A stretch of DNA of 64,000 bases from Effrenium voratum (Eukaryota > Sar > Dinophyceae > Suessiales > Symbiodiniaceae): contig CAUJNA010000569.1 of assembly GCA_963377175.1 (NCBI GenBank), positions 476,884-540,883 of the forward strand. The letters are read 5' to 3'. The notes beneath the pieces are model-generated. The model was given only the letters and a program-made list of their open reading frames with translations. It had not been told where the DNA came from and ran no database searches. This document shows, in pieces, positions 1-54,170 of this stretch. The translations under genes and the position numbers were made by a program. Numbering within the stretch: the stretch's first letter is position 1; each line of letters begins with the position of its first letter.

Positions 1-560
1 TCCTCGGCAGCGGCATGTTGCGGCAGCCCCATAGAGCTTCACTCTAGAGCCTTGCTCCAAAGACCAAGGTGGTAATCTGACACAGCAGGCTGCGGCCGGA
101 TTTACACGCTGACGCGACACAGCCGGCCACGGGGAACCCAGCCCGTCAGTTCCAACACTTCCAGTCCCTGCGTGTCCTGTCATTTCCTTTCACTGAAGCC
201 CCTGCAGCAGTTATGTTTCCATCTCCAATTTTCCCCTCCAGTCCACCCACTTTCCATCAGTTTCCATCAAATAATTCATGGAACATGGGTGCAGCAATTG
301 TAGGAAATGGCTGGAACATGAACGGATGGACTGTTGATGGAACATTGATGGAAAATGGATGGAAAATCATGGACAATGCGTGGACAATCATGGAAAATGG
401 GAAATGATGGCAGCTTGTGGTAGTGGGTGGAACATTGCTGGGGCATGGATGCATAATGTGTGAAAGGGATGGAACTGGTGAAGAATGGACGGAAGATGGA
501 TGGACAATTGTGGATGCTTCCCTTTGATGTCTCCCGTCCTGTCACATCAATTTCCTACAT
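1..560. repeat. dispersed repeat, inverted copy at the right end
   Basis: The reverse complement of bases 1-120 aligns with 63430-63551 over its length with few mismatches; both share a CTCTAGAG core, CCTTGGTC and a GTGTCGCGTCAGCG end. From about 130 the text changes to a GGAAATGAA-type repeat (in reverse here) also seen near 20.77 kb and 63.1-63.4 kb. Bases 290-500 are short imperfect repeats of ATGGA, ATGGAAAATGG and GGACAATCATGG, which keep several frames open by chance. I see no gene. Confidence 0.7.
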
Positions 561-1165
561 TTGAACTCTGTCATTTGTTTCATGGCCCTTGAGTCGCTTC
601 ATGTCATCTTGCTCAAAGTTGCCCGCGGGGCGCTTCCACGTCATTTGCTTTTCCGGCCATGAAAAAGTCCAGGTAGCCCGCGGGGCGCTTTGAAGTTGCC
701 ATGGAAGTTTGTCTACAGCGCGCCAGAGCGTAGCTCAGGCAGCGCCTGCCTACCCGACACAGAGTCGGTTTGCGTATGAAGCCGACGGAGGCCGAACAGT
801 TGACCTCGCGCTGCGCAGCGTTGCTGTGCATTTGGAAAGCGCTGTGTTAGCGCGGCAGAGCATAGCTTCGGCAGCGCCTTTCTTTCCGACGCAGCGTCGG
901 CTTTCCACAAGCAAGCGTGACTGCAGGAGGGCGCAGAGCGTAGCTCAGCGCGAAAGACATGTGTGCAATTCCGCTCTAAATTTTGCGCGATAGCGAACTT
1001 GACGAGACCGCTTTTGCCAAATGAAGTCACGCAAGCAAGCGACCGCAGCGCACAGCTCCGCGCGAAAGACATGTATAGGGGGCTCCAGGCGCTTGCCGCA
1101 CTCAATTTGAAGAGAGCGCTCGTGCCAAATGAAGCCGAGGAAAGCCGAGTGAAGCCAGGATCCTG
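561..1165. repeat. GC-rich degenerate repeat block
   Basis: This stretch has two copies of GCCCGCGGGGCGCTT (near 622 and 677) and several diverged copies of a GCGC-AGAGC-TAGCT-GGCAGCGCCT unit (about 720-760, 850-880, 930-950). Open frames occur on both strands but look like by-products of GC-rich repetition. No protein family is recognised. Confidence 0.5.
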
Positions 1166-1505
1166 AGCATGGATGATAAGCATCACTACGCATCCCCAGC
1201 ATCCCTAGCATGATAAGCATCGCCACGCATCCCCAGCATCCCTAGCAGAATGATGATACACCACTACGCATCCCCGGCATGTCCAGCAGCGATGATGACG
1301 CATCTCCAGCACCGATCAGAATGATGATGGTAATCATCACTACGCATCCCCGGCATCTCCAGTAGCGATGATGATAATCATGCCTACGCATCGCTTGCGT
1401 GTCAAGCCAGGTCTAACGGGATAAGCATCACTACGCATCCCTAGCATCCCTAGCAGTGATGATGATAACCATCACTACGCATCCCCGGCATCTCCGGCTC
1501 AACGA
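1166..1505. repeat. GATGAT / ACGCATCC satellite, left copy
   Basis: Repeated CACTACGCATCCCCAGCATC and GATGATGATAATCATCAC blocks. Near 1355-1425 it carries the composite TCTCCAG-AGCGATGATGATAATCATG-CTACGCATCGCTTGC-TGTCAAGCC. The reverse complement of that composite is nearly identical to 62040-62110, so the same higher-order repeat lies at both ends of the window in opposite orientation. Confidence 0.8.
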
Positions 1506-2009
1506 AGAAAGCAACGCAACGGATAAGGCGACACAAACTTATAATTCTGATGATAAGACAAATATTATAGGGGGTCTTCTAACGCAATGTACTCATTAGT
1601 AACATCTTGTGGCCTAGCAAGTGCCATAGTGAGTTGGTTGAATACAAATGTGAATGAAGAAGTTGAGGTAAACACATCGCCTCCTCCTCCCTGTTAGCGT
1701 CCATAGTTGTCCGCCTATCACTGTTAATAGTTCTTCAACGTGTACTGTTAGCCCATCATTAGAAGAAAATGCTAGTTGTGAAATAGCGCCCCCGACTGAC
1801 ATTCCTGTTCCTACTAATGCCTGAAAGTGAATATGAAGATAAGGCAAAAGGAAAACAAAGGTTTAAACTGAAGTAGCATGAAAGAAGCAAATATAAAACA
1901 ACCATGCAAATTGAATAATACTTTCAAGATAGTACATGTACCAGTAGAGCCGGCAAAGCCGGTGGGCGGAAGTTTCCAACATATAAAAACTATAGCTCTC
2001 TTTCTCTTT
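1506..2009. other. unique AT-rich spacer
   Basis: About 500 bp without strong repetition or a recognisable gene. Open frames are short and resemble nothing known to me. Confidence 0.4.
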
Positions 2010-3440
2010 GTTTTCTTGACTCCTTTCTCCGTCATTCTTCCTTTCTTCCTTTCTTCCTTTCTCTCCTTCCTTCCTCCCTTCTTTCCTTCTTTCTATCAGT
2101 CTTTTCTTTCTCTCTTTCTTTCGTCTGCTTGTCTATCTATCTTTCTCTACCTATCTATACCTAACTACCTATCTATCTATCTCTCGTGTTATCTATCTAT
2201 CTGCTTATCTATCTAGCTATCTATCTCTCAATCTATCTTCTTTATCTATCTCTCTATCTATCTATCCATCTCTCTATATCCCTCTATCTCTGTCTCTCTC
2301 TTTCTCTATCTGTTTATCTATATATCTATCTATTTACTTCTCTATCTATGTATCTATTTATCTATCTATTTATTTGCCTATCTATCTATCTATCTATTTC
2401 TCTTTCCATCTACCTATTTTTTTATATCTCTATCTCTCTTTCTATATATTTATCTATTTATCTCTCTATCTATCTATCTATCTATCTATCTTCTGTTTGT
2501 TTATCTATCTAACTATTTATCTTTCCATCTATCTCTCTATCTCTCTTTCTTTCTATCTTTCTATCTATCTTTCTTTCTATTTATTTATGTCTCTATCTCT
2601 TTTCTCTATCTCTTTTCTCTATCTATCTTTCTTTCTATCCATCTCTCCATCTATCTCCCGCGTATCTATCTATCTATCTATCGGTTTTTCTTTCTATCTA
2701 TCTCTATGTCTCTCTATGTATCCCTCTGTCTACCTGTCTGTCTCTCTCTGTCTATCTATCTCTCTATCTCATTATCTCACGTGTATTTATCCATCTCTTT
2801 ATCTCTCTATCTATCTAAATATTTATCCGTATCTATAGATCTACCTATCTATCCATCTCTTCATCTACCTCTCTATCTCATTCTCTCTACCTATCTATCT
2901 ATGTATCTACCTCTCTATCTATTTATCTATTTATCTATCTATCTATCTGCATTTATTTCTCTATCTATCTACTTATCTATCGATCTCTCTCTCTCTCTAT
3001 TTCTGTTTCTATCTATTTATCTATCTCTCTATCTAATCTATTTGTCTATCTATCTATCGATCTGTTTCTTCGTTTATCTATCTATTTGTTTATCTCTCTA
3101 TCTATCTATCTCTCTGTCTATCTATCTATCCCTATCTTTATTTATTTCTCTGTCTATCTTTCTGCTTATCTATCTCCTTTTTCTTTCTATTTGTCTATCT
3201 CTCTATCTCTCTCTCTCGCTATCTCTCTCTCTCTATCTATCTATCTCTCTCTCTATCTATCTATCTATTTCTCTATCTTTTTATTTCTCTTTCTCTCTCG
3301 TCTATTTATCTATCTATCTCGCTCTCTCTCTCTCCTTCTCTTTATCTATCTATCTATCTCTTTCTCTATCTCTTTCTATTTATCTCTCTAGCTATCTCTC
3401 TATCTGTCTATTGATCTATCTATCTATCCATCTACTTAAA
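2010..3440. repeat. (TCTA/TCTT)n microsatellite, 1.4 kb
   Basis: An almost pure pyrimidine-biased tract of TCTA, TCTT and TCTC units. The long Leu/Ser/Tyr-rich open frames here (up to 257 codons, all of the form YLSIYLS) exist because a 4-bp repeat without stop codons is open in every phase on this strand. They are not genes. Confidence 0.95.
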
Positions 3441-3737
3441 AGTTGCGATTTTCAATCCCTGAAAGTTGACTTCACTTAAAAGTTGCGATTTTCGAGCCCC
3501 AGCTGCGAAAGTGGACTTCATGTACTACTTTCGTACTTAAAAGTTGCGATTTCCAAGCCCCAAGCTGCGAAAGTGGACGTCGCGTACTACTTTCGTACTT
3601 AAAAGTTGCGATTTTCGAGCCGTACTACTTTCGTACTTAAAAGTTGCGACCAGCCGCCAGCGGACTTCGCGTACTACTTTCGTACTTAAAAGTTGCGATT
3701 TCGAGCCCCGGCTGCGAAAGTGGACTTCACGTTCGAC
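3441..3737. repeat. minisatellite, unit about 61 bp
   Basis: Five copies starting with ACTTAAAAGTTGCGATTT, followed by CGAGCCCC-GCTGCGAAAGTGGACTTC and ending GTACTACTTTCGT; two copies are internally shortened. Copies begin near 3475, 3536, 3597 and 3636, with the last at about 3685. Confidence 0.85.
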
Positions 3738-3877
3738 TTCGCGTAGTTGACCTTGCGAAAGTCCTGCGCGTGCCACGGAATCTTTACTTGACCCTGCGAA
3801 AGTGCTGCACCTGCCACGAATTCTGCACTTGACCTTGCGAAAGTGTTGCGCCTGCCATGAATTTTGCACTTGACCTT
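3738..3877. repeat. minisatellite, unit about 44 bp, cut by the assembly gap
   Basis: Three copies of a unit running CTTGACC-TGCGAAAGTG-TGC-CCTGCCACGAATT-TGCA; the array runs into the N block, so its true length is unknown. Related CTGCGCCTGCCACGAATTTT sequence occurs near 55.7-55.86 kb. Confidence 0.8.
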
Positions 3878-3977
3878 NNNNNNNNNNNNNNNNNNNNNNN
3901 NNNNNNNNNNNNNNNNNNNNNNNNNNNNNNNNNNNNNNNNNNNNNNNNNNNNNNNNNNNNNNNNNNNNNNNNNNNNN
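3878..3977. other. assembly gap of 100 N
   Basis: Exactly 100 N between a minisatellite and coding-like sequence. A round length suggests a fixed-size scaffolding gap, so neighbouring sequence may not be truly adjacent. Confidence 0.98.
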
Positions 3978-5110
3978 GCAACATAAAGAAACGCAGTGGG
4001 AGTCTATTAGCAATGCTGTTAGTGTTCAGAAACTGGTAGTGATGAGGAGCGACCTTGCGTTTAATACTTTTACAGATGGTGAGGTTATGAATACCTTGGC
4101 TGCTTCAAAATTGAAAGTGCTGAACTAGTTGATGAGGACACCGAAGATGATGAGACTATTGATGAGGATCTGACCGACGCGAACCATCACATAAGCATTC
4201 GTCACAGACACATTCAAACCGAACCCAACCCACATTATTTCACATGAAAATGAGTGCTCGGTTAACACATTGATGGAGCACTACGCAGATTCATTGATGA
4301 GACACAAGAGAACCAAAAACAAGAACCTAACCAGAGAGAAGATATTGGAAACCATCAACAAAAGTGACGAAGACTTCAAGAACTACGGCGCATCAATTCA
4401 TCAAATGGATGCTGCTTTTTCAACCGTTTGACATCAAAGCAAGAATGTATGATATTGACAGCAAGTTGGTTTACAGACACGACCGACATGGCAGTAGATG
4501 AAGAAGAAGCAAAAACATCAACGAAGAAATGCTTCTTAAGTTTAACAAAAACAGTTGTGTGAAAACTAAAAGAGTTCTTATATTCAAGTTGATGCCCGGG
4601 TTTTGAATGAATGCCGAACAGTTGTAGCGCACGTCAAACTGCAAGGCATTTTCAGATGGAGGAAGCAAGTTTAATCACATACCACTTTAAAATTTGATGT
4701 ATGGAAGCCTTACAGTCACACATGCGACTTTGACAGGTTTAACAATTACACAGTAAATTTTGCGCTCAAGCAAATCAGGGAAACATCTTTTTCAACAAAA
4801 GTTTCAACCCCTGTAGATGAGGCACTGCGTCACAAAAAAACTATGGAGGCAGATTGCATGTTTTAGATGATGAAGAACCAGAGAGCATGATAAGTGCAAT
4901 TTGGCACACATAAAAGGCACCCGCCCCTTTGGGAGTAGTTCGAATAATGAGAACAACTATAAGTAGACAAATAGGAGCAAATCCTTCTTTGAAGAAGTAG
5001 AACACCTTCAGAACAGTTACTGTAACAGCAGTTGTACTGAGTGGCAGCTGCTGAATGATGAGTGGAGTACTGAACTCTATAGAGATGGGAGACCATACTT
5101 TCAACACACA
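3978..5110 (+). pseudogene. broken, AT-richer coding-like region, unrecognised
   Basis: Plus-strand reading gives several protein-like stretches separated by frameshifts and stops. A run near 4230-4430 is rich in charged residues. A 60-codon run at about 4689-4863 contains C-D-F-D-R-F-N-N-Y and ends at a TAG. Another run lies near 4850-5110. Base composition resembles the virus-like element at 11.5-17.8 kb more than the GC-rich flanks, so this could be another part of that element (for example a structural gene), but I do not recognise the family. The minus-strand open frame at 4841-5554 looks like a shadow. Confidence 0.4.
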
Positions 5111-7079
5111 AGCGGCAGCATGGAATTCCCAGAAGTTGGTACTGATCACAAGGTTGAAGAAACGGGTGAGGAAAGGCAACAAGGTGGTGAGCCTGGACAA
5201 GGAGGAGGGTCGCCGTTTGAAGAGGGGAGGTGTTTGCCAACATTTTGGAGGAAAGCGCAAAGGTGTCCAGGGCAGTGGGGACGGGCCCCTTTGCTGGGAG
5301 TCAGCCTTTCGTGGCGCAACGGCGGACGGAGACGAGGCGTTGACACAAGCGGACACTGAGGTTGAGGTGGCTTGGAGAACGGCGAGCGAGTTGTGGCGGA
5401 CGGTTTCGCAAAGTTGGCCGGGATTTGGACACGTAAGGATGGCCGTTGGGCAAAGAAAACACCAAAGGGAAGATCGTGATGGAAAATGAACAGGCGACAG
5501 TAGGCGGGCCTGAAAGTTTGAGGAAGATGGGCAGGGAAACTGAGCCGCCCGCAACAGGACGAAGCCATTCGGCAGCTTAGGGCCGGTCTTTTGGCCGAGC
5601 TAGGGTTAGGATCAATGTAGATGCGTGATGGCGACTAAATGGACCGCTATGCAACTTGGCAGTTGGTCTTCGTGCTGAGGCGCTGCGGGTGTGGGATGAT
5701 GGAACGAATGCGAAATCTGCAGAGTGGTGACGACGGAGGTACCCTTGTTGCCAGCTGGAGGTGAAAAGAGAAGAGGTTGGCGCCTCTCGGACTCGGAGAA
5801 TGAAGAGGTGACGCCGGGGCCGCCTTGAACAGAAGCGCATCCGCACGCGGAAGTACGCGAATGGGTCAAGTGGGCCAGGAGGAGTGGGTGTTCGCGGATC
5901 AGAAAGTCCGGCGTCACCTTTGCGGGCAGATGCAGGAGAACACGTTCAAGGGGGGCTTGAGCATGTGGTAGTTTGGATGTAGCCGGCACACCTGATAGGG
6001 GCGCCATCCAAAGCGCCTGTTCTGCACAAGTAAAATTGTGGTGTAGTTGCTCAGCGAGTAATGCCTTTATCATAGCAAACCCATCTAGTTGGAAGCCTCA
6101 GGGAACCTACAGTTCTTGGGAGGTTGATGAACTCGCGCCTCTAACATGTTTAACATGCTCGGGAACTGGCAAGACCCCCAGGTATTTGGAGAGTCAGTTC
6201 CAATTCATGCTTTGCCTTTTGGATTGTTCGCGAGATAAATACGCAGCCCTCCTAGTAGTGTAGAAACCCTTTTCAAGGGAAATGCAAATCTTGTTGCAAC
6301 CCATTGCTATTAGGAGGCTTAATCCTGGCTTGTCGCAAAATATGGGAACCTTATTTCATTTGAGGCGGTTCGCCTTTGGTTCAGCAAGTGGCATGACCCA
6401 CTGGGGCGAAGCGCGGCGCCCGACACCCGTGTCTGCTTGAAGCTCCTGCGCCGCGAGACTCGAGTCACCTAGCGCGGAAAGAGCGATATTGTTGCTCTTG
6501 GTGTGCATGTTTCGAGTTGTTGATGTTAGAGAGCTTGCGCCTCCTTCATTCCGAGAACGATGCGAAGGGTTCCAGCTTGTCAGCACTCAACATAGCACTA
6601 CTCACAGTATCAACATAGCCTTGCTTTACTGCATAATGCAACATAGACTTGCTGCATAGCACATCTCTAAATGGCTTTGCTGCGGAGCGCATTTCGACCT
6701 CTGACCTGCGCAGCCTTGCTTTGCGCAGCACTCTGCTCAGCTCTGCCTTGCACATCCACTGCTCTTCTCTGCGCAGCTGCTCAATCGAGCAGCCTCGCTT
6801 CTTCGCGCAAAGCGCTTCTTTACTATGCGTGTCAAAGCGCGCGTGCTGTGGATGCCCGCTGGCCGACGAACCCGGGATTGTGTTTCTTAAAGGCCCTTCG
6901 AAGCGCTCTTGCAGCGGTTTCCGACTTCCCTTGTGAATTGTCTGCAACCTTTGCGTGTCCAAGCACATATGTTGCGATGCCGTGCCAAAAAAATGTATGT
7001 TTTGAGGAGTAAGAAGGTTGGTTCGAACCCTTTACTCTGACTAAGCCTGAGCACCTTATTCTTGCGGACCCGGCTTTTT
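5111..7079. other. GC-rich region without a recognised gene
   Basis: Open frames on both strands are common because of base composition, but none has a recognisable motif. Bases 6650-6830 repeat short GCGCAGC and CTCTGC words and resemble the block at 561-1165. Confidence 0.4.
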
Positions 7080-9780
7080 AACGTATTTGGATAATACTCT
7101 AGGATTTCCGAAGACTTACGATAAAATATCTTATTTAGTGTCTAATTTGAAATATTTTATGATATTTTTTGAGATGGATGGACGCTTATTCGATGGGTTT
7201 TGTATAATTTATGTCGTCGTTTTTTGCAGATATATTGGGGTATTGAATTTTTAGACGGTCCGGGATTGTGATGGTATTGTTTTTAATATTTTTGAATTGG
7301 AAAAATAAATATTTTTTGATGTTTAAGTAATGGATGATTAGAATATATGATTATAGATTATATATTGGTATATTATGATGGATTTTAAGGATTTTGCTGG
7401 TTATTTGATTGAATTGAATTCGGTAAAATAAATATTATTATTTTTAAAATATGATATTGTAAAATTAATTATGTATTATGAAGTAATAATGTTTTACTTA
7501 AAAAATATTATTTTTAAATATTTTATTGTATTATTATTTTAAATAATATATTATATTTATTTTATTAGAATTTATTAATATTTTTTTAATGATTGTAATA
7601 TATTTTATGTAAAATTGTTTATATTTAAAATGTTTTTGTATTTGTTATAAATATTATATATATGAATGGATTGTTTGAGGTTAATATTTTATATATGTAT
7701 TTGTTGTTTTTTATTTAAATACTTATTTTTTTTTGTATTTAGAAATTATTTTTAAATAATTTTAATGAATAATATTTTATTTAAAATTGAATTTAGTTTA
7801 TTTTTTTATTTTTATAAATATAATTAATTATATTTATTTATATTTTTTTTTAATTATTATTTATTATAAATTATATTTAATAACATATTTAATTTTAACA
7901 ATTTAAATTATTTATAATTATTTAAATAAAATTATATTTTATATTATAGTTTTTTATTTTTTTATACCAAATTTTATTTTATATGATATGGTGGTGTTTT
8001 TGTTGATTATTTCTCTTAGTTTGTGTTTAGTGGAGTTGTTGTTGTTTTTTTTATTATGAGGAATTAATATTTTTTGGATCGAGATTTTTTATATGTTTGG
8101 TTTGGGTTTCGTTTTCGGAGCGAGGTGATATAATTTTCGTGCTTGAGTGGTGTTGGGCTGTGGGTGGGCGAGATTTTATTTCCTGATTTTGTTTTGTGGT
8201 TAATGATTTGAATTGAAAATTTGGATTAAATTACTTATTGTATTATAGATTATAAATCTTTTTGTGTTGGGCTAGGTCCCGAGGCAAGGGCTGAACCCTA
8301 TTTTGTTATTATTTTTTTTGAATATATTTTATTATTAATTTATATTTTCTTATTTAAATAAAGATTTATAATATTATTTTTGCAAAGAAAATAAAAAATT
8401 AAAAAAATACATTTATATTTAAAATAAATTATTATATTCCTTTAAAAAAATAAAAATATTTTTAAATAGATTTTTTAATAAAAATTAACCCCTATAATAT
8501 ATTCGAAAAACCAAAATAATCGGATTTTTTATTCAAAAATATAATTACTAACTTCTATCTCTAAATTATTTAAATTTAAAATAATCCAATTTATATAAAT
8601 TAAAAATATTATATATATATCTAATATATGTTCCAAATTCTATCATCATTATTTTAATTTTTCGATAATATATAAACAAAACCCATAAATTTTATAAATT
8701 CATAATAATTAATCTACATAATATTAATTAATTCAAAAAGCTTTAATCTATACAATAACAATTTCAATCAAACAACCAAATAAACCGGCAAACAAATTGA
8801 AAACAATAAATAAATACAAAAATACAAAAGACAAAGACAATTAGATTAACAAACACACAGAAACACAAATAAACAAAAAAAAAAATATACAAATTTTGTA
8901 AATATAAAAACAATCATATATTAATACGACGAACAAATTTCATATTTTTTTTTTTATAAATAAAAAAATATAATATTTCGGAACAAAATTTTATATTAAG
9001 CAAAATCCAAAATAAAAATTCAAAATCACAATTATATATTTTCTCAATATATTCAAAATTCATTTTTTTATACATTTACTCAATCTATTTATTTCTACAT
9101 CTATAAATATAAAATATTTAAAAAATCAATAATAAAAAAATCAAAACAATTAAAAATAAACCAATCATATATTATTAAATTTATAAAATCAATCTTTATA
9201 TAAATTTATTATAATATATATATAAAAATCAATTAATTTCATTTAAATTATTATCCAAAAACACCACTAATTACAAAAAAGAATCTTATATCCTAAACTC
9301 TTATAAGACAAATACAATATTTCAACCAAAAAAATAAAAAACAAATATTTTCATAACATCATCTTTAAAAGCTAAACTAAAAAGATTTTTCAAAAAAAAT
9401 AACAAAAACACAATTCCAATTTTAAAATAAACCATTCAACTCTTCTAAAAATTATATGTTGTTCCTATATAAATCTTTAAATCAAATCATATAATATATC
9501 CAAAAGTCGTCGAACCAAAACTAAAAATCATTTATATTATATCCGAATAATCTATATTAATATCCTCTATCACCACATTATTCAAATTTAAAACGATATA
9601 ACCTACACAATTTACAACATAATATATTCTTAAAATATTATATATATCTAAACACAATATCCTCTAATTTCAATCAGAATTATCTTAATTCTTTCAATAA
9701 CAAAAAACGGGTCCTAAATGTTATAAACTCATAAATTTATACAGGTTAACCTATATATACAATATCAACTACAAACAAAT
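7080..9780. other. AT-rich island with a C-depleted left arm and G-depleted right arm
   Basis: A 2.7 kb island of extreme AT content flanked by GC-rich DNA. By hand count on the plus strand, 7501-7800 has 24 G and 1 C, while 9001-9240 has 0 G and 27 C. The bias builds up gradually from 7080, stays G-over-C through 8101-8220 (about 38 G to 9 C), switches near 8270-8400, then stays C-over-G to 9780. A short patch at 8268-8305 with normal C and G marks the hinge. There are no open frames above background. See findings for interpretations. Confidence 0.9.
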
Positions 9781-10338
9781 AAATAGACAAACCGACAAAC
9801 CAACAAACAGACAGACAAACAAACAAAAAGACAGAGACAAAAACACAAAAGACAGAGACAGAGACAAACAGACACACAGACACACAGACACACAGACACA
9901 CAGACACACAGACACACAGACACACAGACACACAGACACACAGACACACAGACACACAGACACACAGACACACAGACACACAGACACACAGACACACAGA
10001 CACACAGACACACAGACACACAGACACACAGACACACAGACACACAGACACACACACACGGACACACACACACGGACACACACACACGACACACGGACAC
10101 ACGGACACACAGACACACGGACACACGGACACACAGACACACAGACACACAGACACACAGACACACAGACACACAGACACACAGACACACAGACACACAG
10201 ACACACAGACACACAGACACACAGACACACAGACACACAGACGAACAGACACAGACACAGACACAGACACAGACACAGACACAGACACACACACAGACAC
10301 AGACACAGACACAGCCACAGACACAGACACAGACAGAC

Positions 10339-10409
<71 letters not shown>

Positions 10410-10495
10410 GATACAGAAAACAGATACCAGAGACCAACAGACAAACAAAAACAGAGAAAGACACCGACAGAAAGACAGAGACAAAAAGAGACACA
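9781..10495. repeat. (CAGACACA)n and (CAGA)n array, nearly free of T
   Basis: About 700 bp made of A, C and G on the plus strand with very few T. The core is a regular 8-bp CAGACACA repeat from about 9870 to 10235, flanked by GACACA and GACA variants. Minus-strand open frames of up to 305 codons (Val/Cys/Ser/Leu-rich) are repeat artefacts, since no phase contains a stop. Confidence 0.95.
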
Positions 10496-11524: not shown

Positions 11525-12000
11525 ATGACTACGCGACAAGAAGTCATCCACGCCGTCCATTCAATCCGAAGCAGGAGCAAGTCGCCCGAAGGAATAGCAA
11601 GAGGCAGTGAATGGACGAGGGGACACATGGAAACAAGAAGCAGGGGAAGAAGCCCAGAAAGCACAAACACCGAAAGTAGCCGAGGCAAGAAGAAAAAACT
11701 ACTTAAAGAGAAAACGCCATTATAAAGTAAAAGTGGCAGGAATGTTCAGAAACGGCAATAGAAAACAGAGAATCACGAATGACGAACTTGATATGATGGT
11801 TGAACTCACGCAAGCGAAAAACGACTTAGTCTTGCAGAGGATAAGCGAACAGAACCAGCTGTCAAGCGAGGACAGCGAGAAGCCCGTGAGGTGGAAGGAC
11901 GACCGCAAGACCTACCACCAGAACTACTACTACGAAACCCTAAAGCAGTCTGACACTTGCGAGGACTGATTTCAAGCAAGTCCAACCTGTCCAAGCACAA
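11525..12000 (+). pseudogene. unknown basic protein with a zinc-finger-like C terminus, frameshifted
   Basis: Two overlapping open frames (11525-11725 and 11607-11969) look like one basic, Ser/Arg/Lys-rich protein. The second continues into a hydrophilic segment and ends D-T-C-E-D. Just past a frameshift the sequence reads S-K-S-N-L-S-K-H-K-K-S-K-V-C, which resembles a C2H2-type finger (C-E-D followed by L-x2-H). Position immediately before the polymerase and shared base composition suggest it belongs to the same element. Whether it is a separate gene or the start of the polymerase reading frame is unclear. Confidence 0.4.
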
Positions 12001-12250
12001 GAAAAGCAAGGTATGCAATAGACAGAAAACGTCAAAAAACCCACTACTCTGCCTGAAAACATTTAATAAGATTAATACGGTCATTTTCAACCCGAAACCC
12101 ATTTTCTCCAACAGCCAACCCCAGCCCAAAAAACTACTTAAAAGAGAAATTGCATATACCATATAGAGGAAAATCAAGGATTTCATCTTAAACAGCCAAC
12201 AAGGCGAACTAAAACAAAAGAAGGGAGGCAACCACAAAAAGTCAAAATAG

Positions 12251-15200
12251 GTGGTAAGACCTACAGATCTGATAAGCGTAACCCAATTTCAAAGGTGTTG
12301 TAAAGGAAACAAGGAGCGACGGATACAGAAAGCACAGTCTTTTAATGAAATGTGCTATTTTTCTCAAACTAACGAGGGGCAGACCCTTACAGGATTAAAC
12401 CAGAAGCAACGACTGGCAGAACTCCTCAACACCCCGAACATGAAAATAATCGTGAAAGTGGGTTTGTTGTTTAATAACCCTAACAATGAAGAAGTGAGGC
12501 GAAGGCTGAGAAGCAGGAGATACAACATTCACAACCCTGACGAGTTAAACGGGACGTTTGAAAACGCCGCTTGCGACATAGAGGTTCAAATTGAAATAAC
12601 CGAATATGTTCAATCAGGGTTGGTTCTCCTTCAGGTTGAGAGGCTGGTCATCAGTTATGATAGATATAACCCTACACGAGGAGCTTCGCTTATTCCATTA
12701 CCCGACTGGGTAGCAAACAAGAAGGCGTGCATCAAGATCAAAAATGAAGACCAGTTATGTTTCAAATATTCTGTTCAATGTGGGTTTTAGGAGATTTACA
12801 AAAATACAATCCCTGCTACATGTATCATTACAAAAATAGTGTCAATGATGCTTTTATCAAATGGGCTAATATAGGCTTTCCAGTCGGTAATGTTCATCAA
12901 TCCTGACACTGACAGTAAAACTTTGTTTGTTACACAAAAGAAGTAGCAACCCGCAAGCACTGCGCAAAATAGATTTGCTGAAATTGACTAATAACCCTAA
13001 GTCACACTATGTGTTCATCAAAAAGATGTGATAAGTTGATGAGAGGACAAACCAACAAAGCAAGTAGAAAAACTTTTACAACAACACGAAGAACAGGGAT
13101 GTCTAGCAGTTGAGGGACAAAAATAGAATTCCAAAGCAGGTGAAACAATTGCATTCAAAAACCATTTCAAGAAACTTAGGCTCCATTCGTAATCTATGCC
13201 GACTTTGAATGTTTGACCGTGCCCACTGATGTTAAAAGCAGATCTGCAAAAGCGAAAACAAGCTCGTATCAGAATCACCGTCCGTGTGGTTTTATGATTT
13301 TTGCGGTCAATGCCATAACTGGAAGCAGTGAACCTTACTTTTACAGAGGTGAAGATTGCATGGACAATCTCATTGACAAAACAATAAAGTTAGAGAGGAT
13401 GTCTTAGAGAAAATGAAGCAGGAAAAAGACTGTATTGAAACTGAGAAGGACTGGGAGGACTTCAATAGTGCCACCAAGTGTTTCATTTGTGGAAACAAAT
13501 TTGAGGAAGGGGAAAAGAGATGCTGGGACCGCTGCCAGTTCAAAGGTAAATATAGAGGTTGTGCTCACGAAGCGTGTCATCTACGATTTAGTACGAGAGA
13601 TCATAAATCCCGGTGTTTCTTCATAACCTTAAAACTACGATGCTCGCCTAACCATTAACAAGGCACACAAACTGAACAAGAAGACTGAAATAGAATGTGT
13701 CGCTCAGAACAGCGAGAAGTTCATCACCTTCGGGTTTCAAAATCTTTGCTTCAAACACAGTTTCAGGTTCTTATCATCTTCTTTGGATAAAACTAGTTAA
13801 ATTGCGAAAATTCGGGAGTGCTTCAGACACGACCAAAGCACTCGCTTCGCGAAGTCATAAAATGCGTGAGAATTAGAACAACTTCAGATACAGCGTTAGA
13901 ACCCATGTTAAAACCGATGAAGATTTGGATTTATTGACCGATAAGGGTATTTATCCCTACGACTACTTTGATGACCTTGAAAGGTTACTACCACCTAAAG
14001 AAGCGCTTTGTAGTAAATTGAATGAAGCAAATGTCAGTGATAAAGACTACGAGCGAGCCTTGAAGGCCTGGAAGCACTTCGGCATCAGGACGCTTGCGCG
14101 GTATCACGACCTTTACTTACGCACGGACGCATTCTTACTGACCGATGTGATTGAAAACTTTAGGGACTTGTGTGTGGAATACTACGGTTTAGACCCCGCT
14201 TCCTAATTTCGCGTTTGATGCGATGCTTTTAAAAACTGGGGTTGAAATAGAACAATTGCACGACCAAGACATGTATGAAATGATTGAGAAAGGTATGCGA
14301 GGTGGAGTGTGTCAAGTTAGTCAAAAATTAGCAGTGAGTTGCGAATAACAAGTATATGGATGCAACATACGACCGTTCAAAACCGAATATTCGTATAAAC
14401 TACTTAGATGCGAATAATTGGTATGGTCTAGCAATGTCTCAAAAATTGCCTTTAAAGAATATCAAAGCAAAGTCCCTGGTATTGAAAATTGGGACGAGCG
14501 AGACGAGCTCGGTTATATCTTAGAAGTTGACTTAGAATATCCAACGGAACTACACGACTACCATTCGGAATGCCGACTGGCACCTGAAATTATGAATGTA
14601 AAATCTGACATGCTTTCTGAGTCCACAAAATCTATTCTGGTAAAGCACCGAAGGATGAAAAGGCCAACAAACTCATATTAAACCTTCAAGACAAATAAAA
14701 TATGCAGTTCATATGAAAACTTTACAGTCTTACCCAAAAATGGACTAAAGGTTTAACGAACTGTCAGAAGAATGCAATTCCAACAACGAGCGTGGATAAG
14801 ACCGTGGATTGATTTTATATAACACGGTTCAAAAGAAAGGAAGCGAAGAGTGATTTTCAGAAAGAACTCTACAAACTCATGTATAATAGTGATAATGAAG
14901 AAGGATATGAAAAGTGTGTGAATATCCCAACATTCAAAAACAGATTCAGAATAAATGAAAATCTTGTAGGGGTGGAGAAGACTAAAGCGAAACGGGAGTT
15001 GGATAAACCAGTTTTCTTAGCAATGACTTTTTTGGCTTAAGTAAATTACACATGCATCAGATCTACTACGATGTTCTTAAGAATAAATAGAATGAACACA
15101 TTAAACTAGTAGATACTGGTACTGATTGTTATGTAATACAAACTTTCACCGATGACGTACACAAGGACTTCAAAGAGTTAGACCAATAAATGGGCTTTAG

Positions 15201-15593
15201 CGAATATCCTGCTGAACACCGTTGCCATGACAAAACAAACACGAAAGTCTTTTGCAAGTTTCAACATTAATTAAGCGGAAAAGTAGTAGCGTCATTCATG
15301 GGACTAAGACCCAAATCATACGCTTTTATCGTTCATGGAGAGCAGGAAGATCACGGGAAATCAAAAGGTGTAGTAAAGCATAAAGTCAAGAAGGAGTTGA
15401 ACTAAAAATCAGACGAAGAAACATTAGCTGAACAAAGCCTGACATTACTTTCAATTACATACGAAGTAGTAGCCATCAAATCTTCTCATAAACACAAGCA
15501 AAGTCCGCATTGAGTAATTATTCCAGTAAAAGGTTTTACCAAGATGCTTACACATCACTACCTTACGGGCACTACACACTCAAACACCCCTAA
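12251..15593 (+). pseudogene. protein-primed family B DNA polymerase of Polinton/Maverick type, decayed
   Basis: Polymerase that would copy the element's own linear DNA from a protein primer. Reading across frames gives the family order: N-terminal segment (12251-12789) ending in N-E-D-Q-L-C-F-K-Y-S-V-Q-C-G; exonuclease motif I Y-A-D-F-E (DFE at 13201-13209); a C-x2-C and G-K-Y-R-G-C-A-H insert like endonuclease VII (13479-13580); Exo II region (from 13750); an intact block 13925-14206 containing Y-P-Y-D-Y, W-K-H-F-G and D-L-Y-L-R-T-D; motif A Y-L-D-A-N-N-W-Y-G (14401-14427); motif B region from 14849; motif C V-D-T-G-T-D-C (15109-15129); C terminus ending P-Y-G-H-Y-T-L-K-H-P then TAA at 15591. 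The span of about 1,110 codons is near full length. At least eight frame changes and several stops break it. Exo II has His (13756-13758) where Asp is expected, and motif C has Gly (15118-15120) for its first Asp. It is dead. The family call is strong; Polinton versus other pPolB viruses is less certain. Confidence 0.88.
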
Positions 15594-15607
15594 AGAAACG
15601 ATAAATA

Positions 15608-16162
15608 ATGTTATTAATGGATACTACTAGGTATAAGAACGGTTCGATATACAAAATCACTGACATAGGTTATAACAAATAATATATCGGAAGCACCTGC
15701 GAGAGTTTAAGTCAGAGAATGACAAGACACAAGAGCAATTACAAGCTACATCAAACTCAATAGTATGGAAGGATGGCATCATTTGAACTGTTCGATGAAT
15801 TCGGTTTGGAAATTTGAAAAATTCAATTTCCTGAAAGTTACCCGTGCAATGGTAAAGAAGAATTACAAAGACAAGCAGGACACCATTTAAGCAGAACTGA
15901 CTGTGTGAATAAGCGAGTCACGGGAAGACCAGCAATAGAATACCGACAACAAACAGAAGTTAAAGAACATAGGAAGCAGTATAACAAAGAATATAGAGCA
16001 CTCAACCGTGACAAACTACATGAGTATGATAAAGCGAAATATGAAAGGAATAAGGAAGAAATAGGCAAGAAGGTAGAATGTAATGTGTGCCATCAACTAA
16101 AATGTCAGTCAAATAAAACAAATGTCAATGCAGAAAATGAAAATATTAACATCTATCGTTAG
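15608..16162 (+). pseudogene. GIY-YIG endonuclease, three in-frame stops
   Basis: A single reading frame of about 185 codons with no frameshift. It starts at one of two ATGs (15608 or 15617), followed by N-G-S-I-Y-K-I-T-D (the GIY half) and then Y-I-G-S-T-C-E-S-L (the YIG half). It continues through H-K-S-N-Y-K, E-S-Y-P-C-N, a C-V-N-K turn and a Lys/Glu/Tyr-rich helical tail of the Y-N-K-E-Y-R type, ending V-E-C-N-V-C-H. This layout matches GIY-YIG nucleases of large and Polinton-like viruses, with homing or repair roles. Stops at 15680 (TAA, directly before the YIG motif), 15761 (TAG) and 15815 (TGA) break it. It lies 14 bp after the polymerase stop and 2 bp before the methyltransferase frame, the tight spacing expected of a compact viral genome. 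Confidence 0.85.
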
Positions 16163-16164
16163 AG

Positions 16165-16714
16165 TTGAAAAACGCCGATACTATTTGTGATATTCTTGAA
16201 TGGGACTATACTCAGTTTGAGAGAAACCACCTTCAAGTAATCTGGGCATCCCCTCCATGCACTGAATACAGCAGGGCAAAAACAACGGGTGTCCGCAAGT
16301 TTGAGTATGCTAGTAGTATTGTTTTAAAAACTTTGGAGGCAATAAAGTATTGTAATTGTCAATGCTGGATAATAGAAAACACCGAAACTGGACTTTTGAA
16401 GGAAAAACCGTTTGTGAGTGGGTTGAAATACTCTGGTGTGGATTATTTGTAAATATGGGTTTAATTACAGGACACGGACTAGGCTTTGGACTAACATAAT
16501 TACATGGAAACCTGGACCATGATGTAAAAGGGATTGTGGCAAGGTTAGGAAAGGGAAGCTTATGGAAACCCATCAACGCTTCCCACCAAAAACTAAGGCG
16601 GAATGGGGTGATAATCCTATCGTTCATACACAAGAAGACCAATACAAAATCCTAGCTGACTTGATAAGAAAATATTTGTTGGTCTCGTTCCCTAAACCCT
16701 TCTCCCTGCTTTAG
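16165..16714 (+). pseudogene. viral-type cytosine-C5 DNA methyltransferase, 5'-truncated and frameshifted
   Basis: The first part (16165-16449) has W-A-S-P-P-C-T-E-Y-S-R-A-K-T, the Pro-Cys catalytic motif IV of C5 methyltransferases, followed about 50 codons later by W-I-I-E-N-T-E-T-G, motif VI. The frame then shifts: from about 16452 another frame reads K-Y-G-F-N-Y-R-T-R-T-R-L-W-T-N-I, the motif VIII region, then a TGA at 16520 and C-K-R-D-C-G-K-V, ending at TAG 16712. Motif I (the cofactor-binding F-x-G-x-G) is missing; the sequence opens at the D-I-L-E-W-D-Y segment normally some 50 residues in, directly after the GIY-YIG stop. A small deletion at this junction would explain it. The likely ancestral role is methylating the element's own DNA. 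Confidence 0.82.
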
Positions 16715-17212
16715 GGAGTTCAGATTCCCTACCGTGGGGAGTTCAGAGCCCCTACCTTGGAGTTGGAAAGCTCAGAACCCCTACCGTGGGGAGTTTAGAG
16801 TGGTCTTTTGTGGGTGTTGGTGAGCCACATTAAACTGTTTTTACCCGTCAAGCTCCTTGTGTCCGTTCACAACCGAGGCTACTGAATGACACAGCCAGTG
16901 TTAATGAAACTGAATATGAAACAAATCGAAGAACTGTTTATGCAAATTAGTTAGTTGAAATATGATTAAACATGATCACCTTTTAGAACCTTTCAGTATA
17001 CTACAATTATAACCCTGACACAAATTTTCAATGACTAAACCATACCAAAAACCACATAAACACAGATTTACATAAAACATAATATGGTTGTAAAAAAGTA
17101 ATGCTGAATGAATGAATGACTGAAGCGAAACTGAAAAATTAATATGGTGAATTCTTTAAATGCAATCGATGTGTTTATGGGAAAACTATTGATGGCTTCC
17201 GTTGTGTAAAAA
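16715..17212. repeat. short tandem repeat and AT-rich spacer
   Basis: Bases 16715-16805 hold about four imperfect copies of a unit of roughly 30 bp, GGGGAGTTCAGA-CCCCTACC(G/T)T. The rest, to 17212, is AT-rich without a clear gene, though 17140-17210 reads like an upstream extension of the next frame broken by stops. Confidence 0.55.
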
Positions 17213-17842
17213 GTGGTTTGTTGTGAGTGTAGACGAAAAGTAAATTTCATAGGTAAAATCAACGCCCAGACCCTGACCCCAAACCAAAAACCACGGGGAT
17301 TGGAGGAAGGTACAACACCACCTCTCATTTTCAAAGCGCACGAAGCAATTGAAGCGACACAGAGGTCTTACGAGGCGTTGGCCGCTGACTTCTACAATGT
17401 GTGTACAACAACTTCTGAAAATACTATGTTTACTGTAAAGTGTTGCAAAGTTTTGAAAAATGAAAAAGTAAGTGGACTGCTTGAAAACCCTACTGAAAAC
17501 AACACAAACAAATAGTCTTTTGAACAACTGACTGCTCCAATGTATGCGGTAAATAATGCTTGTAGTCGTATAGGTTTAAAAAACAGGTTTTCAAAACAAC
17601 TGTCAAAATATTTCATCAAGGCAAGTTTTTTGAACAAGGTAAAGGGGGAGAATAGAAAAATAAAAAATGAAATGTTTATGCTGCTTCAAAACGATTCTTT
17701 GACCCCTACTAAAACCACAATAAAAATGAGTAAGGTGGGATGGAGGGTTGAAAAAACACAAAAAGTGATTAAGGTAACCGGACCAGTTTTGTATTCATTT
17801 TTTGGCCCTCCCCCCACGACCATCACAACCAGTTGTAATTGA
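17213..17842 (+). pseudogene. unknown protein of the virus-like element, one in-frame stop
   Basis: Two open stretches (17213-17512 and 17516-17842) share one frame and are separated by a single TAG at 17513. Together they would encode about 210 residues. The N terminus has C-C-E-C-R-R-K, and just upstream a C-N-R-C pair can be read in another frame, so a small zinc-binding site is possible. The rest is Lys/Asn/Thr-rich with no motif I know. Base composition and strand match the polymerase block, so I place it in the same element. Confidence 0.5.
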
Positions 17843-35270: not shown

Positions 35271-35353
35271 TTGTCTTGGTTGGTGTGGGTTCCGGATAGG
35301 CCTGCCAATGTCACACATTGCACACACTACTGCACACACACACAACTAGGTAC

Positions 35354-35806
35354 CTCGGTGGCATCCAAGACGGGGAAGCTAAGCATCCTCCTGACTCCAG
35401 AAGGCGCGACACTCATGGATTCCCCCTGGTGCTGCACTTGCGTGCCCTGGGCAATATCTCTAGGCGTCACAGGCGCAGGCACATATTGCCACCTGGCTAG
35501 CTCATCTTTCACATCCTGCAACTCATCTTCCAAAAGCGCCAACCTGTAGGTTTTCTCCGCAATGCGACGGCCAAGAAGTTTGCGATGACCATGTAGCTCA
35601 TCAGAGCGCTCTGCAGTTTGCACCACGTTCAGCTCGTGCATCACTTTTGTTTTCTCATCATTAAGTTTGACCAGCTCCACGCGCAGAACGTCTCGCTTCG
35701 CACTCAGCACCGAAACTGCTTCCTGTAGTTCTCTCTCTTCTGCTCGCAGCGAGTCCTCGATCTGCGTCTCACTAGCCGCTTGAGTTTCCTGCTTCGCTAT
35801 CGTTGC
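35354..35806 (-). CDS. coiled-coil exon, 151 codons
   Basis: A clean minus-strand exon: acceptor CTGAG precedes GCAACG at 35806, and GT at 35353 follows the last codon GAG. It encodes an acidic N-terminal part, then a long heptad-type coil with E-E-R-E-L-Q-E-A-V, R-D-V-L-R-V-E-L-V-K-L-N, R-R-I-A-E-K-T-Y-R-L-A-L-L and D-E-L-Q-D-V-K-D-E-L. It ends in a Pro/Gln-rich tail. No catalytic motif is visible, so oligomerisation is the likely role. It may belong to the same transcription unit as the methyltransferase-like gene 2 kb upstream on this strand, but I could not join them. Confidence 0.65.
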
Positions 35807-36994
35807 CTCAGGATAGAACAAATGTGTGGTACATGCATGCATGAGTCATGAGTGCCTTGTTTGCCTGTCATGCGTGCATGCATGCATGCATGTCATGCAT
35901 GGATGGCATGTGTGGCGCAGCATTGACACGATGCTGCATGTAATCAAAGGTCCCTACCGCAGCTTTCCGTTCGCCATCATGCACACCCTGCACACATTAC
36001 ATGTGAACAACACTCATGCATGCATGGTGTCAGGTCCTCGGGAGTGCCCAAGTCGTGCTTTGACGCAACACCGGCCTGACAAGCATAGCAGACTATGAAG
36101 CACCCGCGGGCACAGCATGCATAGACACTAGCTCACACACGCATGTCCCTGGCATCATGTTCCTCATCGTGCTGCGGAGTTTGAACTCACACAGCACGCA
36201 TGACATCAAGGAACACAGTCCTCAACTTTCTTCTCCGCGCTAGAGCCCACGTCCTGCGCCGCACAGCTGCAACATATGATAACATCATGAAACATGGAAC
36301 GCAGTCCGTCTTTACGTATCCAGCAAAACCTGTGTCCTCTCGGCTCATCAGGCTACACTTGCAAAACCCTACACTAATGGTCCTTGCCAGCGCTAGTAGC
36401 AGCATGAGCAGGCTCCTGAGAAAATGGAAGGGTCGTAGTCACAAATGATCAAACATTAACAACTCAAACTTAACAAGCCCTGCGTCTTTCAAACCGACTC
36501 CACCCTGTTGGTTTCCACCCTTAAGAGAGCTTAGGGGTAACAACGACACGGGCATATGCAAAAGCACATGCTGCATGCGGATTGCTTTATAATTGTTCAC
36601 ACCAGCGCCATGCATGAACACGCACAGCAGTCCTTGCCCGCGCCCTTCCCAGGCTCTTCTACACGTGCCTCATTGTCGCCAACAACAAAGGTGAAACACG
36701 GTCAGAAACAGTACAGCAGCCACCCCAAGACATGCAGCCGCGGTCCTTTGGCGTTGCAGGCACACCACAGCACAAGTCCTGCAGGCAGCCGGCCATCAGT
36801 CAGTGCAAGAAAATCACACATTGTCCTTAGAATCAGATTCACCCCAGGGCTTCGGCACAGTGCCCGGCAAGAAGGCACCCTTTGACTGCGCTTCATGAAA
36901 TTGACCTCGCGCACATGTCAGCCATGTGTTGGCACGACACACATGCATGCATGGTAAGTGCATGTATAGCGAGCCTGCAGCTCAGCCCGAGTCA

Positions 36995-37339: not shown

Positions 37340-38813
37340 ATTAGCATTTGGCGACATTGCAGCGTATTCTTGCCACACAGGCTCGCTGACCTGAACCAAG
37401 TCGCGGAGTTGCTGGTGGAATTGCATCATCGAATTTTCCCAAGAGGCTGGGACAGTGGTGCGAGGGTGACTCATCAAGTAATCAAACACTTGCAGCATGC
37501 GAGCATCTTCCCAAGGATCGTTCAAGGGAAGAGCATCGAAGATCTCCTTGTCTGAGAGCCCAGCATCCACAGCAGGCTTGGACCTGGGAGGGAGACAACA
37601 GGGCAACCAGGCAAAGACATGCACACTATATGACCGGCCTTAATGGATAAATCACTTCCTTATCATCGGCGAGCCATAATTGAAGGAGCTTCTCGCCGAA
37701 CTTCGGAGGATAAGCCCTGACAATTTAGGCGAGGCAAGCATAGCGGCGGTAGATTTCCGGGGGCCAGGCTGCGTGCTTTTGAGGGCACGGGTGCCAGTCC
37801 ATTTCTTCCCTTTCCGGCCTTGCACGAAGCAATAGCACGCAACAAGCCAGGCACACACTGAAACAACTCACAAGTTGAACTGGGACTGGCACATGCAGTT
37901 TTCACGGTGGTCAGCTCAGCACGTTTGGCTTTGGTCAATTTGCCAGCATCCAGCCCAGCAATTGACGGCCAGGTAGATCTGCATGTAAGCCGCTTTGGCG
38001 ACCCGCATCCGTACAATTGCATCCACCATGAGGTTTTATACACCTAGGCTGCAACGGCCAAGCAAAAGCTAGACACCGCAAGGCAGAAGTGACCGAACTC
38101 CAATGGTATGTTGTTGGTAAGTGTTTCACTGCGCAACTGAGCCCTGGCACATGCGCCACACAGTTCTCAAGCCATTGCCACCTCTGCGAAGAGAAGAAAA
38201 GCGATTGGGAAGGCTGCTCCACCACAAACAGCGCCCTGACTGCCATTGTGCAAACGCACAACAGCACCAACCTTGGATAGGGTTCCAGAACAAAGTTTGA
38301 ACTGTGACGGTTGGTTTCATTTCAAGGCTACTGAATTCAAGCAGGAAGCCGGGCGCACATGACGTTTCCGCTGGTCACGGAACTGTGCCCCGCCCCACAC
38401 CAGTTCAAAGCATTTCGCATGCTCGTGCCACGTGCAGGGAGCCCCCAACTTGAGCAGTCAGGTGCCATAAGCACTATGGCATATGGAGCAGCCATCAAAC
38501 AGCCAAAGGCTGCCAGCCTGATCCAGTATGTTGCGTTTTCAAGCATTGCAAACACATGTGCGCACAAACTACAAGTATAATGCTGAGGTTCTCGCACAAA
38601 GCCAATTGGGCTGTTGACATCATGGCTTTCGGATATCTTTATATCAAGTCTGCCAGTGCGGAACCCTCTCCTCTTCCTGAGTGCAGCTTTGTAGTAATGA
38701 GTGAAGTTTGTCATTGCGCCAAGGTGCCACTCTCTGTGGGCAGCACCTTGCCCCGAAAATAATTCCAGGAATTGCCATTCGTTGTTGGGATCCCAGGTGA
38801 AGCGAGAGTTCCA
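37340..38813 (-). CDS. cytosine-C5 methyltransferase-like protein, eight exons
   Basis: Exons on the minus strand: 38813-38720, 38665-38596, 38517-38350, 38271-38130, 38043-37872, 37818-37770, 37716-37639 and 37583 to about 37340. They join in frame at all seven junctions. Visible C5-methyltransferase marks are motif I F-L-E-L-F-S-G-Q-G (38771-38745), motif IV A-P-D-C-S-S-W-G with the catalytic-type Cys (about 38465-38442), motif VI V-V-E-Q-P (about 38225) and a motif VIII-like P-K-R-L-T (about 37985). The C-terminal exons add W-T-G-T-R-A-L-K-S-T-Q and an acidic helical segment (last exon includes D-P-W-E-D-A-R-M-L-Q). The P-D-C-S-S-W form replaces the usual P-P-C-Q; I recall it from expanded dinoflagellate proteins, so DNA methylation activity is not assured. 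The 5' start is unresolved; an acceptor precedes 38813, so more exons should lie to the right. The gene is apparently intact where resolved. Confidence 0.75.
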
Positions 38814-38879
38814 CTGCATAAGTAGAACCTTAGGCATGCGTGAGCAGCTTGCCAGCACATTTCACACCTGTGAGAGTGG

Positions 38880-52778: not shown

Positions 52779-53700
52779 ATGACCCGATACTCTGTCTCTG
52801 ATACTGCTTGCCCATGGAATCAGGTCGAGCAAAGTGGGGTCCGTAATGCGCTGAAGGTGAAGGGTATCGGTCTCCTTGCCCTCGCTGATGACTGCTACTC
52901 GTTTGGTCCTAGGGGTCATAACTACAGCCATCTTGTGCGAGTGTTGGATGCAGTTGGGCCTGGACTCTTTGGCATGTGCCTCAATGGCGGCGGCATGTAT
53001 GCACAGTGGCCTGGTTTTGATGTGCGGTCGGCTGACTACCTTCAGCACCTTGCCTTAGCCCTGGCGTGCCAGGACCTTGTGGCACTCATGCGGGCCACCG
53101 CAGCTGAGCACATCCCCCGCATGATCTCTGAAGCCTCCTGGTTAGCCGACTCGGCGGGGGACTGCCCCCTTCTTCTTGAGATGAAGGCAGATCCCAATGA
53201 CGCTGCTGACGCCTTCGTGCAAAGATCCTTGCGGGGGCTCATGGACATTAGAGCATTTAAGGCCACCGCCCTTGGCCGTGCTGCCTCTGGGTACGTCCAG
53301 GCACGTTTGGTGCAGCTCCCAGTTGCCCAGACACTGGACTTCCTATGGTTTCAGGCCCTTGCCAGCGTGTCTGCCCTCCGTAATTTTGCGTTCAAAGATG
53401 GCGTGACGGCTTGGAGTGAGCATTACAATGCCATCCAGCCAGGCATCAACATGTTTTCTGTCCATTTTGCAAATCGGGCCCCGTGGTGCCAGCACGTGAT
53501 TGGGCAGAGCCGACGCATCGAGACCAACCTCCCTGATGGCACTGAGGTCTCCCTTGCTCTTAGGTTGCATGGTGGATCTGTCAAGTACATTAAAGACCCC
53601 TTGATCACGCATCTTGATCTGGTTGATGAACGCGGCTTCACGCTCCTGCCTGAGCTCAGCTCTATCCGGGCCGCACCGTCCGATTTCGTGCAGCAAGGAC
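52779..53700 (+). CDS. SF1 helicase-like protein, N-terminal part
   Basis: A long clean plus-strand frame (start ATG 52779; the frame stays open to 53804). It encodes an N-terminal domain with L-L-A-L-A-D-D-C-Y, F-G-P-R-G-H-N-Y-S-H-L, Y-A-Q-W-P-G-F-D-V-R-S-A-D-Y-L, then V-T-A-W-S-E-H-Y-N and A-P-W-C-Q-H-V, ending near R-L-H-G-G-S-V-K-Y-I. This layout precedes the ATPase core in a helicase family I associate with dinoflagellates. Coding evidence fades after about 53690, where the opposite strand becomes the better frame (see the Walker A piece). Strand and order suggest this is the 5' part of the gene whose later motifs are at 54.4 kb. Confidence 0.65.
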
Positions 53701-54170
53701 CCCAATGTGATAGCGACACAGCAGGAATCAGTGGTCCGCAAGAATTGGGACCGCGTTTCAAACGCCACATCGAGGTCGGTGACCTGATCGTGGTCACGAC
53801 CTAGCAGCCTGGGGAATTGTTGGCAGACCTCCTCCGGGGCATCACGGAGCAGCGACTGAATGTTGCGCGAAAATTCCTGCAGGGGCAGGTTTGGCTCGGC
53901 TACACCGAGTAGCCTGGTAAGCATAATCAGGACCGCACTGCCACAGTAAGTTTTGCCGGTGCCAAAGAGTCCCTGGATACCGAACGTGACTCGTTGGGTG
54001 GCCAAGGCATGATAAATGCCAAGTAGGACACTAAGGAAATGGCCGTCAGGGCCAACACTGAGGCGCAGCACTGCAAGCAAGTACGTTGGGCCACACTGTA
54101 GGAGTCGATGCCAGCCCTGCTCATTTCCGCCCTGCCAAGACGTCTCAAGGGGGCGAACCATGAGTTGCAG
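53690..54170 (-). pseudogene. SF1 helicase segment with Walker A, on the opposite strand
   Basis: The minus strand from 54161 reads T-Y-L-L-A-V-L-R-L, then F-G-I-Q-G-L-F-G-T-G-K-T-Y-C-G-S at about 53978-53930, a clear Walker A P-loop. It continues through L-L-R-D-A-P-E-E-V and D-H-D-Q-V-T-D-L-D-V-A-F-E-T to C-V-A-I-T-L-G-S-L-L near 53690, the type of sequence expected just before the Walker B motif. The plus strand here is full of stops. Reading N-terminal (plus), this piece (minus) and DEAQQ (plus) restores the order of a single SF1 helicase, so I infer an internal inversion of about 0.5 kb. An assembly error is the alternative. Confidence 0.65.

Follow-up and report, generated by a model that had tools for sequence, protein, structure and literature searches.

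The AT-rich island at 7081-9780 of the window belongs to a recurrent class of loci in the Effrenium voratum genome, in which an arm poor in C is followed by an arm poor in G, with the same polarity at all scored loci. Copies of a LINE-like repeat lying at these loci have changed chiefly from C to T, and predominantly on the strand that enters the island centre 5' to 3'. The island is most likely a long-lived zone of strand-specific C-to-T hypermutation located where two convergent gene arrays meet, that is, at a boundary of the dinoTAD type, a reading to which a probability of about 0.6 was assigned. The window is the whole stretch of DNA that was analysed (64,000 nucleotides; C569, positions 476884-540883), and the features at its island are as follows.

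7081..7981, plus strand: left arm, C-poor and T-rich, read as C-to-T change on the plus strand (composition, segmentation)
7982..8300, plus strand: 5'-truncated LINE-like copy (3' end), sense strand C-to-T mutated (repeat comparison)
8268..8305, plus strand: GC-rich 3' tail of the LINE-like copy, the hinge of normal composition (copy alignment)
8306..9780, minus strand: right arm, G-poor and A-rich, read as C-to-T change on the minus strand (composition, segmentation)
9771..10459, no strand assigned: T-free 8-bp tandem repeat bounding the right arm (composition, repeat analysis)

Base composition of the island

Composition was profiled in 50 and 100 bp steps, and six segments were compared. 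The base counts given in a preliminary description of this DNA proved exact (p ≤ 7e-29): positions 7501-7800 contain 24 G and a single C where 74 are expected (binomial p = 1.5e-35), and positions 9001-9240 contain 27 C and no G where 57 G are expected (binomial p = 7e-29). The left arm up to the hinge (7081-8267) is A.30, C.03, G.15, T.52, and the right arm (8306-9780) is A.49, C.13, G.03, T.35. GC is.17-.24 across 7-10 kb of the window, a local minimum of the kind found at convergent gene-array boundaries. The purine fraction stays at.44-.56 in all six segments, as expected if transitions caused the change in composition.

The depletion had been described as affecting a single base in each half and as building gradually from both outer edges, and each statement holds for part of the island. 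Apparently only C was lost in 7081-7300 and 7981-8267, but in the left core (7301-7980) G is also down, to 8%, so that both strands have lost C there; this core and the right arm are reduced in C as well as G, and far more so in the expected base. At the left edge the change is gradual (C counts of 21, 9, 6 and 1 in successive 100-bp steps from 7001), whereas a gradient at the right edge is not clear (G counts of 2, 5, 1 and 8 per 100 bp over 9401-9800), and the T-free tandem repeat follows there. Segmentation placed the polarity flip near 8383 and detected no segment poor in both bases between the arms of the window's island.

The control was 94,580 bases of other DNA (positions 1-7080 and 10501-64000 of the window, plus loci L040-L043). 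The sole C-poor segment listed there has 67 unmasked bp, G-poor segments of more than 170 unmasked bp come solely from a TCTA repeat at 2.1-3.4 kb, and one segment of 261 bp is poor in both bases.

Tandem repeats with strand-skewed units lie outside both edges of the island, the TCTA repeat at 2035-3434 and the T-free repeat of the ACAAACAG type at 9771-10459. The arms were also compared as possible inverted or direct copies of each other, and this was rejected because their match scores were below the mean of block-shuffled controls. An RNA gene at the hinge was likewise rejected: searches of the window gave neither Rfam nor tRNA hits, and six loci gave no Rfam hit either.

Recurrence of the island at other loci

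The sequence around the hinge (8000-8310) was used as a query against the window's own assembly (1,155,904,702 bases in 3,699 contigs), and at least 39 other places matched it with 71-80% identity. A first set was obtained by fetching 10 kb around the best 20 of these at least 39 matches. A second search, with the unmutated sequence of the copy at L017 as the query, gave 44 matches at 40 places, of which 20 were already in the first set; 11 of the remaining 20 places were fetched as a second set (L029-L039). Every island except the window's was therefore one located through the repeat.

Judged from its sequence, the hinge repeat is a LINE-like retrotransposon. Its copies share a common 3' end and have varied 5' truncation points, so that coverage climbs steadily toward the 3' end, as in LINEs; one of five upstream pieces matched RVT_1 at E = 6.4e-4, below the curated cut-off, and the other four gave no match. 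The window's copy aligns over 7982-8251 and continues as a GC-rich tail to about 8300. The patch of normal composition previously placed at the hinge (8268-8305) is thus present, but it is the tail of this copy and stands short of the flip found by segmentation. Hairpin protection of the tail was considered and rejected: the window's tail retains 9 of 13 aligned template C, a count confounded by C-run context, gap placement and template construction.

Four-state segmentation (normal, C-poor, G-poor, both poor) was applied to 32 loci, namely the 20 of the first set, the window and the 11 of the second set. Scoring required both arms to have at least 120 unmasked bp, and 20 of the 32 loci, including the window, qualified. 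The C-poor arm was to the left of the G-poor arm at all 20 (ordering score.80-1.0; p = 1.9e-6), so the skew flip that the preliminary description had proposed to look for at other AT-rich loci was found at these LINE-located loci. At the 12 unscored loci an arm was absent or short, or lay in an assembly gap or past the retrieved sequence; contrary pieces occur at two of them, with 56 bp of C-poor sequence right of the G-poor arm at L010 and 135 bp of G-poor sequence left of 42 bp of C-poor sequence at L034. At the other loci a segment poor in both bases usually lies between the two arms. When the 20 loci were aligned on the split point, GC went from about.5 to about.25 and GC skew from +.28 to -.30, a profile that is descriptive because the split point was picked to separate the arms.

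All 11 second-set copies lie in or beside AT-rich segments. From these copies and the loci fetched first, it seems that the family inserts in or beside islands far above chance. A preference in LINE orientation was dropped as a candidate, since an island read from the opposite strand still shows its C-poor arm first, which makes orientation relative to polarity uninformative.

Substitutions in the LINE-like copies

The copy at L017, the least mutated one, served as the reference; the DNA around it is mostly normal, and a C-poor segment of 128 bp is found at the 3' end of the copy. Relative to this reference, the copy in the window shows C>T at 25 of 38 C and G>A at 9 of 76 G, as well as T>C at 2%, A>G at 5% and, across 267 aligned columns, 8 transversions. 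The C-to-T change on the plus strand that had been proposed for the left arm is therefore seen directly against another copy of the repeat. The corresponding change on the minus strand in the right arm agrees with composition, with the arm order at other islands and with two LINE copies that lie centrally or to the right in theirs.

Pairwise comparisons summed over 20 copies gave 1,459 transitions and 519 transversions, the latter mostly from four poorly aligned copies (L014, L023, L026 and L027). Ancestral letters were reconstructed column by column, and a mixed C/T column was scored as C because T>C is rare. Relative to this ancestor, the 21 copies of the first set, the window's included, have C>T rates of.07-.76 and G>A rates of.01-.26. 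C>T exceeded G>A in all 21, a sign favoured by the query, which is itself C-to-T-mutated; in the second set, found with the unmutated L017 query, this was so in 8 of 11 copies, a count that is not significant by itself. At the 20 two-armed loci, C>T exceeded G>A in 17 of the 17 copies left of the island centre, and the bias was reversed in two of the three copies at or right of it, a comparison that is partly circular, since the LINE is part of the composition by which the centre was placed. The strand bias did not correlate with distance from the island centre (Spearman p =.25).

The rate of C>T on the antisense strand is fairly even between copy classes (.13-.20), and that on the sense strand ranges from.19 to.62. 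A purine before the C was preferred on the antisense strand (.191 vs.075 by site, p = 1e-11), but the same preference was not significant on the sense strand (.290 vs.258, p =.28), and WRC was only slightly favoured over SRC (.209 vs.176 and.297 vs.280). CpG sites were spared: their C>T rate was lower on the sense strand (.181 vs.303, p = 2.5e-5), and a smaller sparing was seen on the antisense strand (.088 vs.137, p =.04). The arms of the window's island contain 28 CpG and 12 GpC, compared with 2793 CpG and 4448 GpC elsewhere (p = 1.1e-4). Separately, YCG was much colder than RCG for C>T on the sense strand (.03 and.06 vs.20 and.29; balanced and mid classes of L009-L028 and the window).

In two related genomes about 70% of CG is methylated and less than 0.1% of CG is fully unmethylated, according to the available part of PMC5890265. 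If this methylation applies in E. voratum, methylated C would be protected, which simple hydrolysis does not predict. Sparing of CpG in a group reported as CG-hypermethylated is a constraint on the chemistry of the mutator.

Gene direction and flank skew

Domain boundaries in Symbiodinium microadriaticum lie where gene blocks converge, and GC is reduced by about 10% at convergent boundaries only (PMC8110479, seen in excerpt); dinoTAD boundaries in Breviolum minutum are likewise convergent array ends (PMC8110477, in excerpt). The association of Hi-C domain boundaries with convergent array ends and GC dips, which the preliminary description had mentioned, matches the first of these reports.

Among 499 candidate ORFs in the island flanks, 19 and one further ORF at L026 were run against Pfam and some against PDB sequences. 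A clearly recognised host gene was found at three other islands, and at all three it points inward. At L014 two eEF2 exons (E = 4.7e-8 and 2.2e-15) lie in order, the first covering about residues 588-630 and the second the C-terminus. The second stops 974 bp short of the LINE match, and the C-poor arm starts at -807. The other two are an inward 688-aa TauD/cucumopine-synthase-like ORF at L026 and an inward FkbM methyltransferase on the right side of L009 (E = 1.1e-18). At L015 the direction is also inward, but on a weak match.

Convergence of genes on the islands is therefore supported by these three islands and by the published boundaries, and is presumed at the window's island. Minus-strand exons at 28-48 kb had been described as pointing toward it, but none of the 20 window ORFs tried reached the Pfam cut-off, including the minus-strand ORFs at 35330-35845 and 38340-38861, the latter with no PDB relative (best E = 0.85). 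In the 20 kb further left, 10 ORFs included no recognised host gene, and the sole match was a copia-type integrase piece (E = 1.4e-4, below cut-off). Gene finding by coding composition yielded, on both strands, transposons or unidentified ORFs for the most part, and the dinoflagellate spliced leader had no match in 41 loci or in the window.

A mild skew with the polarity of the islands extends into the flanks of normal composition. Left flanks had more T than A in 17 of 20 cases, and right flanks more A than T in 13 of 15 (left vs right p = 1.5e-4); GC skew was positive in 14 of 20 left flanks and negative in 10 of 15 right flanks (p =.013). In the window itself the left flank is T-poor, its TA skew of -.054 having the wrong sign.

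Two further features of the window were noted. A low-GC stretch at 11598-17839 (plus strand) contains broken coding pieces whose motifs we take to resemble a Maverick/polinton-type polymerase; it had no polymerase family match in Pfam, PHROGs or NCBIfam and no viral-contig relative in one pattern scan, and it includes a DNA-methyltransferase-like piece at 16150-16449 (phrog_363, E = 2.5e-6). In B. minutum, dinoTAD boundaries are enriched in 5-hmU and in Mavericks, the latter being present at about 11% of boundaries (PMC11071213, in excerpt); given the Maverick enrichment, the position of this stretch beside the island may not be chance. At 53346-54934, open frames on opposite strands lie head to head (AAA_30, E =.05, below cut-off); they resemble two halves of one helicase, with a Walker A-like motif on the minus strand and a DEAQ-like motif on the plus strand, and the pair is perhaps a rearranged pseudogene.

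Mechanism and alternative explanations

With flanking genes pointing inward, as at three other islands and presumably at the window's, the damaged strand is the non-template strand. Hypermutation is probably caused by deamination of this strand where it is exposed at convergent array ends. Polymerases arriving from both sides would slow, terminate or overrun at the array ends, leaving the displaced non-template strand single-stranded, and exposed C could then be deaminated by an enzyme or by chemistry combined with poor repair. Where the two opposing zones overlap, the centre would become poor in both C and G. Plain transcription-coupled deamination would not alone account for the restriction to a few kilobases, since the greater part of the array has normal composition. 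More tentatively, we advance the fuller proposal that convergent array ends of dinoflagellates are permanent zones of germline hypermutation. There, much as happens at immunoglobulin switch regions, an activity disfavouring methylated CpG would deaminate the non-template strand once it is displaced.

The polarity does not by itself single out transcription, since replication and break resection predict the same one. Islands could be sites of fork convergence at which one strand is exposed or miscopied. By analogy with bacteria, whose leading strand is reported to carry an excess of G and T (PMC3174206, in excerpt), converging forks would also give a G+T-rich strand entering the centre, and the flank skew fits equally well. 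Transcription is favoured by the link to convergent gene ends, both published and seen at three islands, although fork and gene direction may coincide, and we regard fork convergence as unlikely. Recurrent double-strand breaks at the centre, followed by resection and deamination of the exposed 3' strands on both sides, would also give zones of a few kilobases and a central overlap, but the mild skew reaching into flanks of normal composition makes this quite improbable.

The repeat itself might have directed the change, through a mutator spreading from the LINE that is RIP-like or acts through CH methylation of transposon 3' ends. The location of all 11 second-set copies is in keeping with this, as is the enrichment of CH methylation at transposon 3' ends in Symbiodinium (PMC5890265, in excerpt). 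However, the copy at L011 is hardly mutated (C>T.10, G>A.02) and has a C-poor arm upstream and a strongly AT-rich stretch downstream, and that at L035 (C>T.10, G>A.04) adjoins a series of C-poor, both-poor and G-poor segments. Hardly mutated copies within heavily mutated arms indicate that the island is older than the LINE; these sequences are most simply explained if LINEs inserted into pre-existing islands. Older copies have the same strand bias at higher levels, which indicates that the mutation process continued after insertion. Moreover, the L017 copy is nearly unmutated in mostly normal DNA, and the change is strand-biased and spares CpG, unlike the decay of methylated C, so a mutator directed by the retrotransposon is very improbable. 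Finally, a low-complexity AT expansion, an AT-rich insert or an assembly artefact would agree with an AT-rich island bearing tandem repeats on both outer sides but hardly merits consideration, given the base substitutions in the LINE comparison, the identical arm order at 20 of 20 loci, the steady purine fraction and arms that do not match each other above block-shuffled controls.

Significance

How dinoTAD boundaries form is an open question (PMC8110477, in excerpt), and the GC dip there has been interpreted as suggesting that the genome encodes the boundary (PMC8110479, in excerpt). A polarised C-to-T signature would make the dip a consequence of opposing strand exposure, and array convergence would become readable from DNA sequence alone. 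The LINE copies provide an internal reference by which the rate, strand and context of the mutator are measurable without strain data. If hypermutation at convergent array ends is true, the AT-rich boundary is a by-product of transcription and not an encoded element; it would be a strand-resolved, datable record of array collision, with the LINE family that repeatedly lands there as a clock.

Comparison with known systems

No earlier description of such islands was found among the listed matches in open-licence papers. The word "skew" is absent from the texts of PMC8110479, PMC8110477 and PMC11071213, and "deamination" and "mutation" are absent from the text of PMC11071213; PMC11453091 is a review (in excerpt). 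Like the boundaries described in parts of the Symbiodinium and Breviolum reports, the islands are AT-rich dips, and three of them have inward-pointing genes. The published Symbiodinium dip is an average of about 10%, whereas single islands here have about 15-25% GC and are polarised by strand on both sides, with a substitution spectrum that has been measured.

Strand-coordinated deamination is known from animal AID at switch regions and from APOBEC clusters. The islands share with these C-to-T change coordinated on one exposed strand, a purine before C on the antisense strand and the sparing of methylated-type CpG, but the RC preference is weak, being non-significant on the sense strand (p =.28), and the island is a feature of an algal germline genome. 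Fungal RIP introduces many C-to-T changes by which repeats become AT-rich, as the island repeats have; in the islands, however, the change is strand-biased and extends from the repeat into host DNA on both sides, and is thus neither confined to repeats nor alike on both strands. At trypanosomatid strand-switch regions a mild skew change runs across whole arrays. There, as at the islands, the sign of the skew changes where arrays meet, but the skew of the islands is extreme and limited to a few kilobases.
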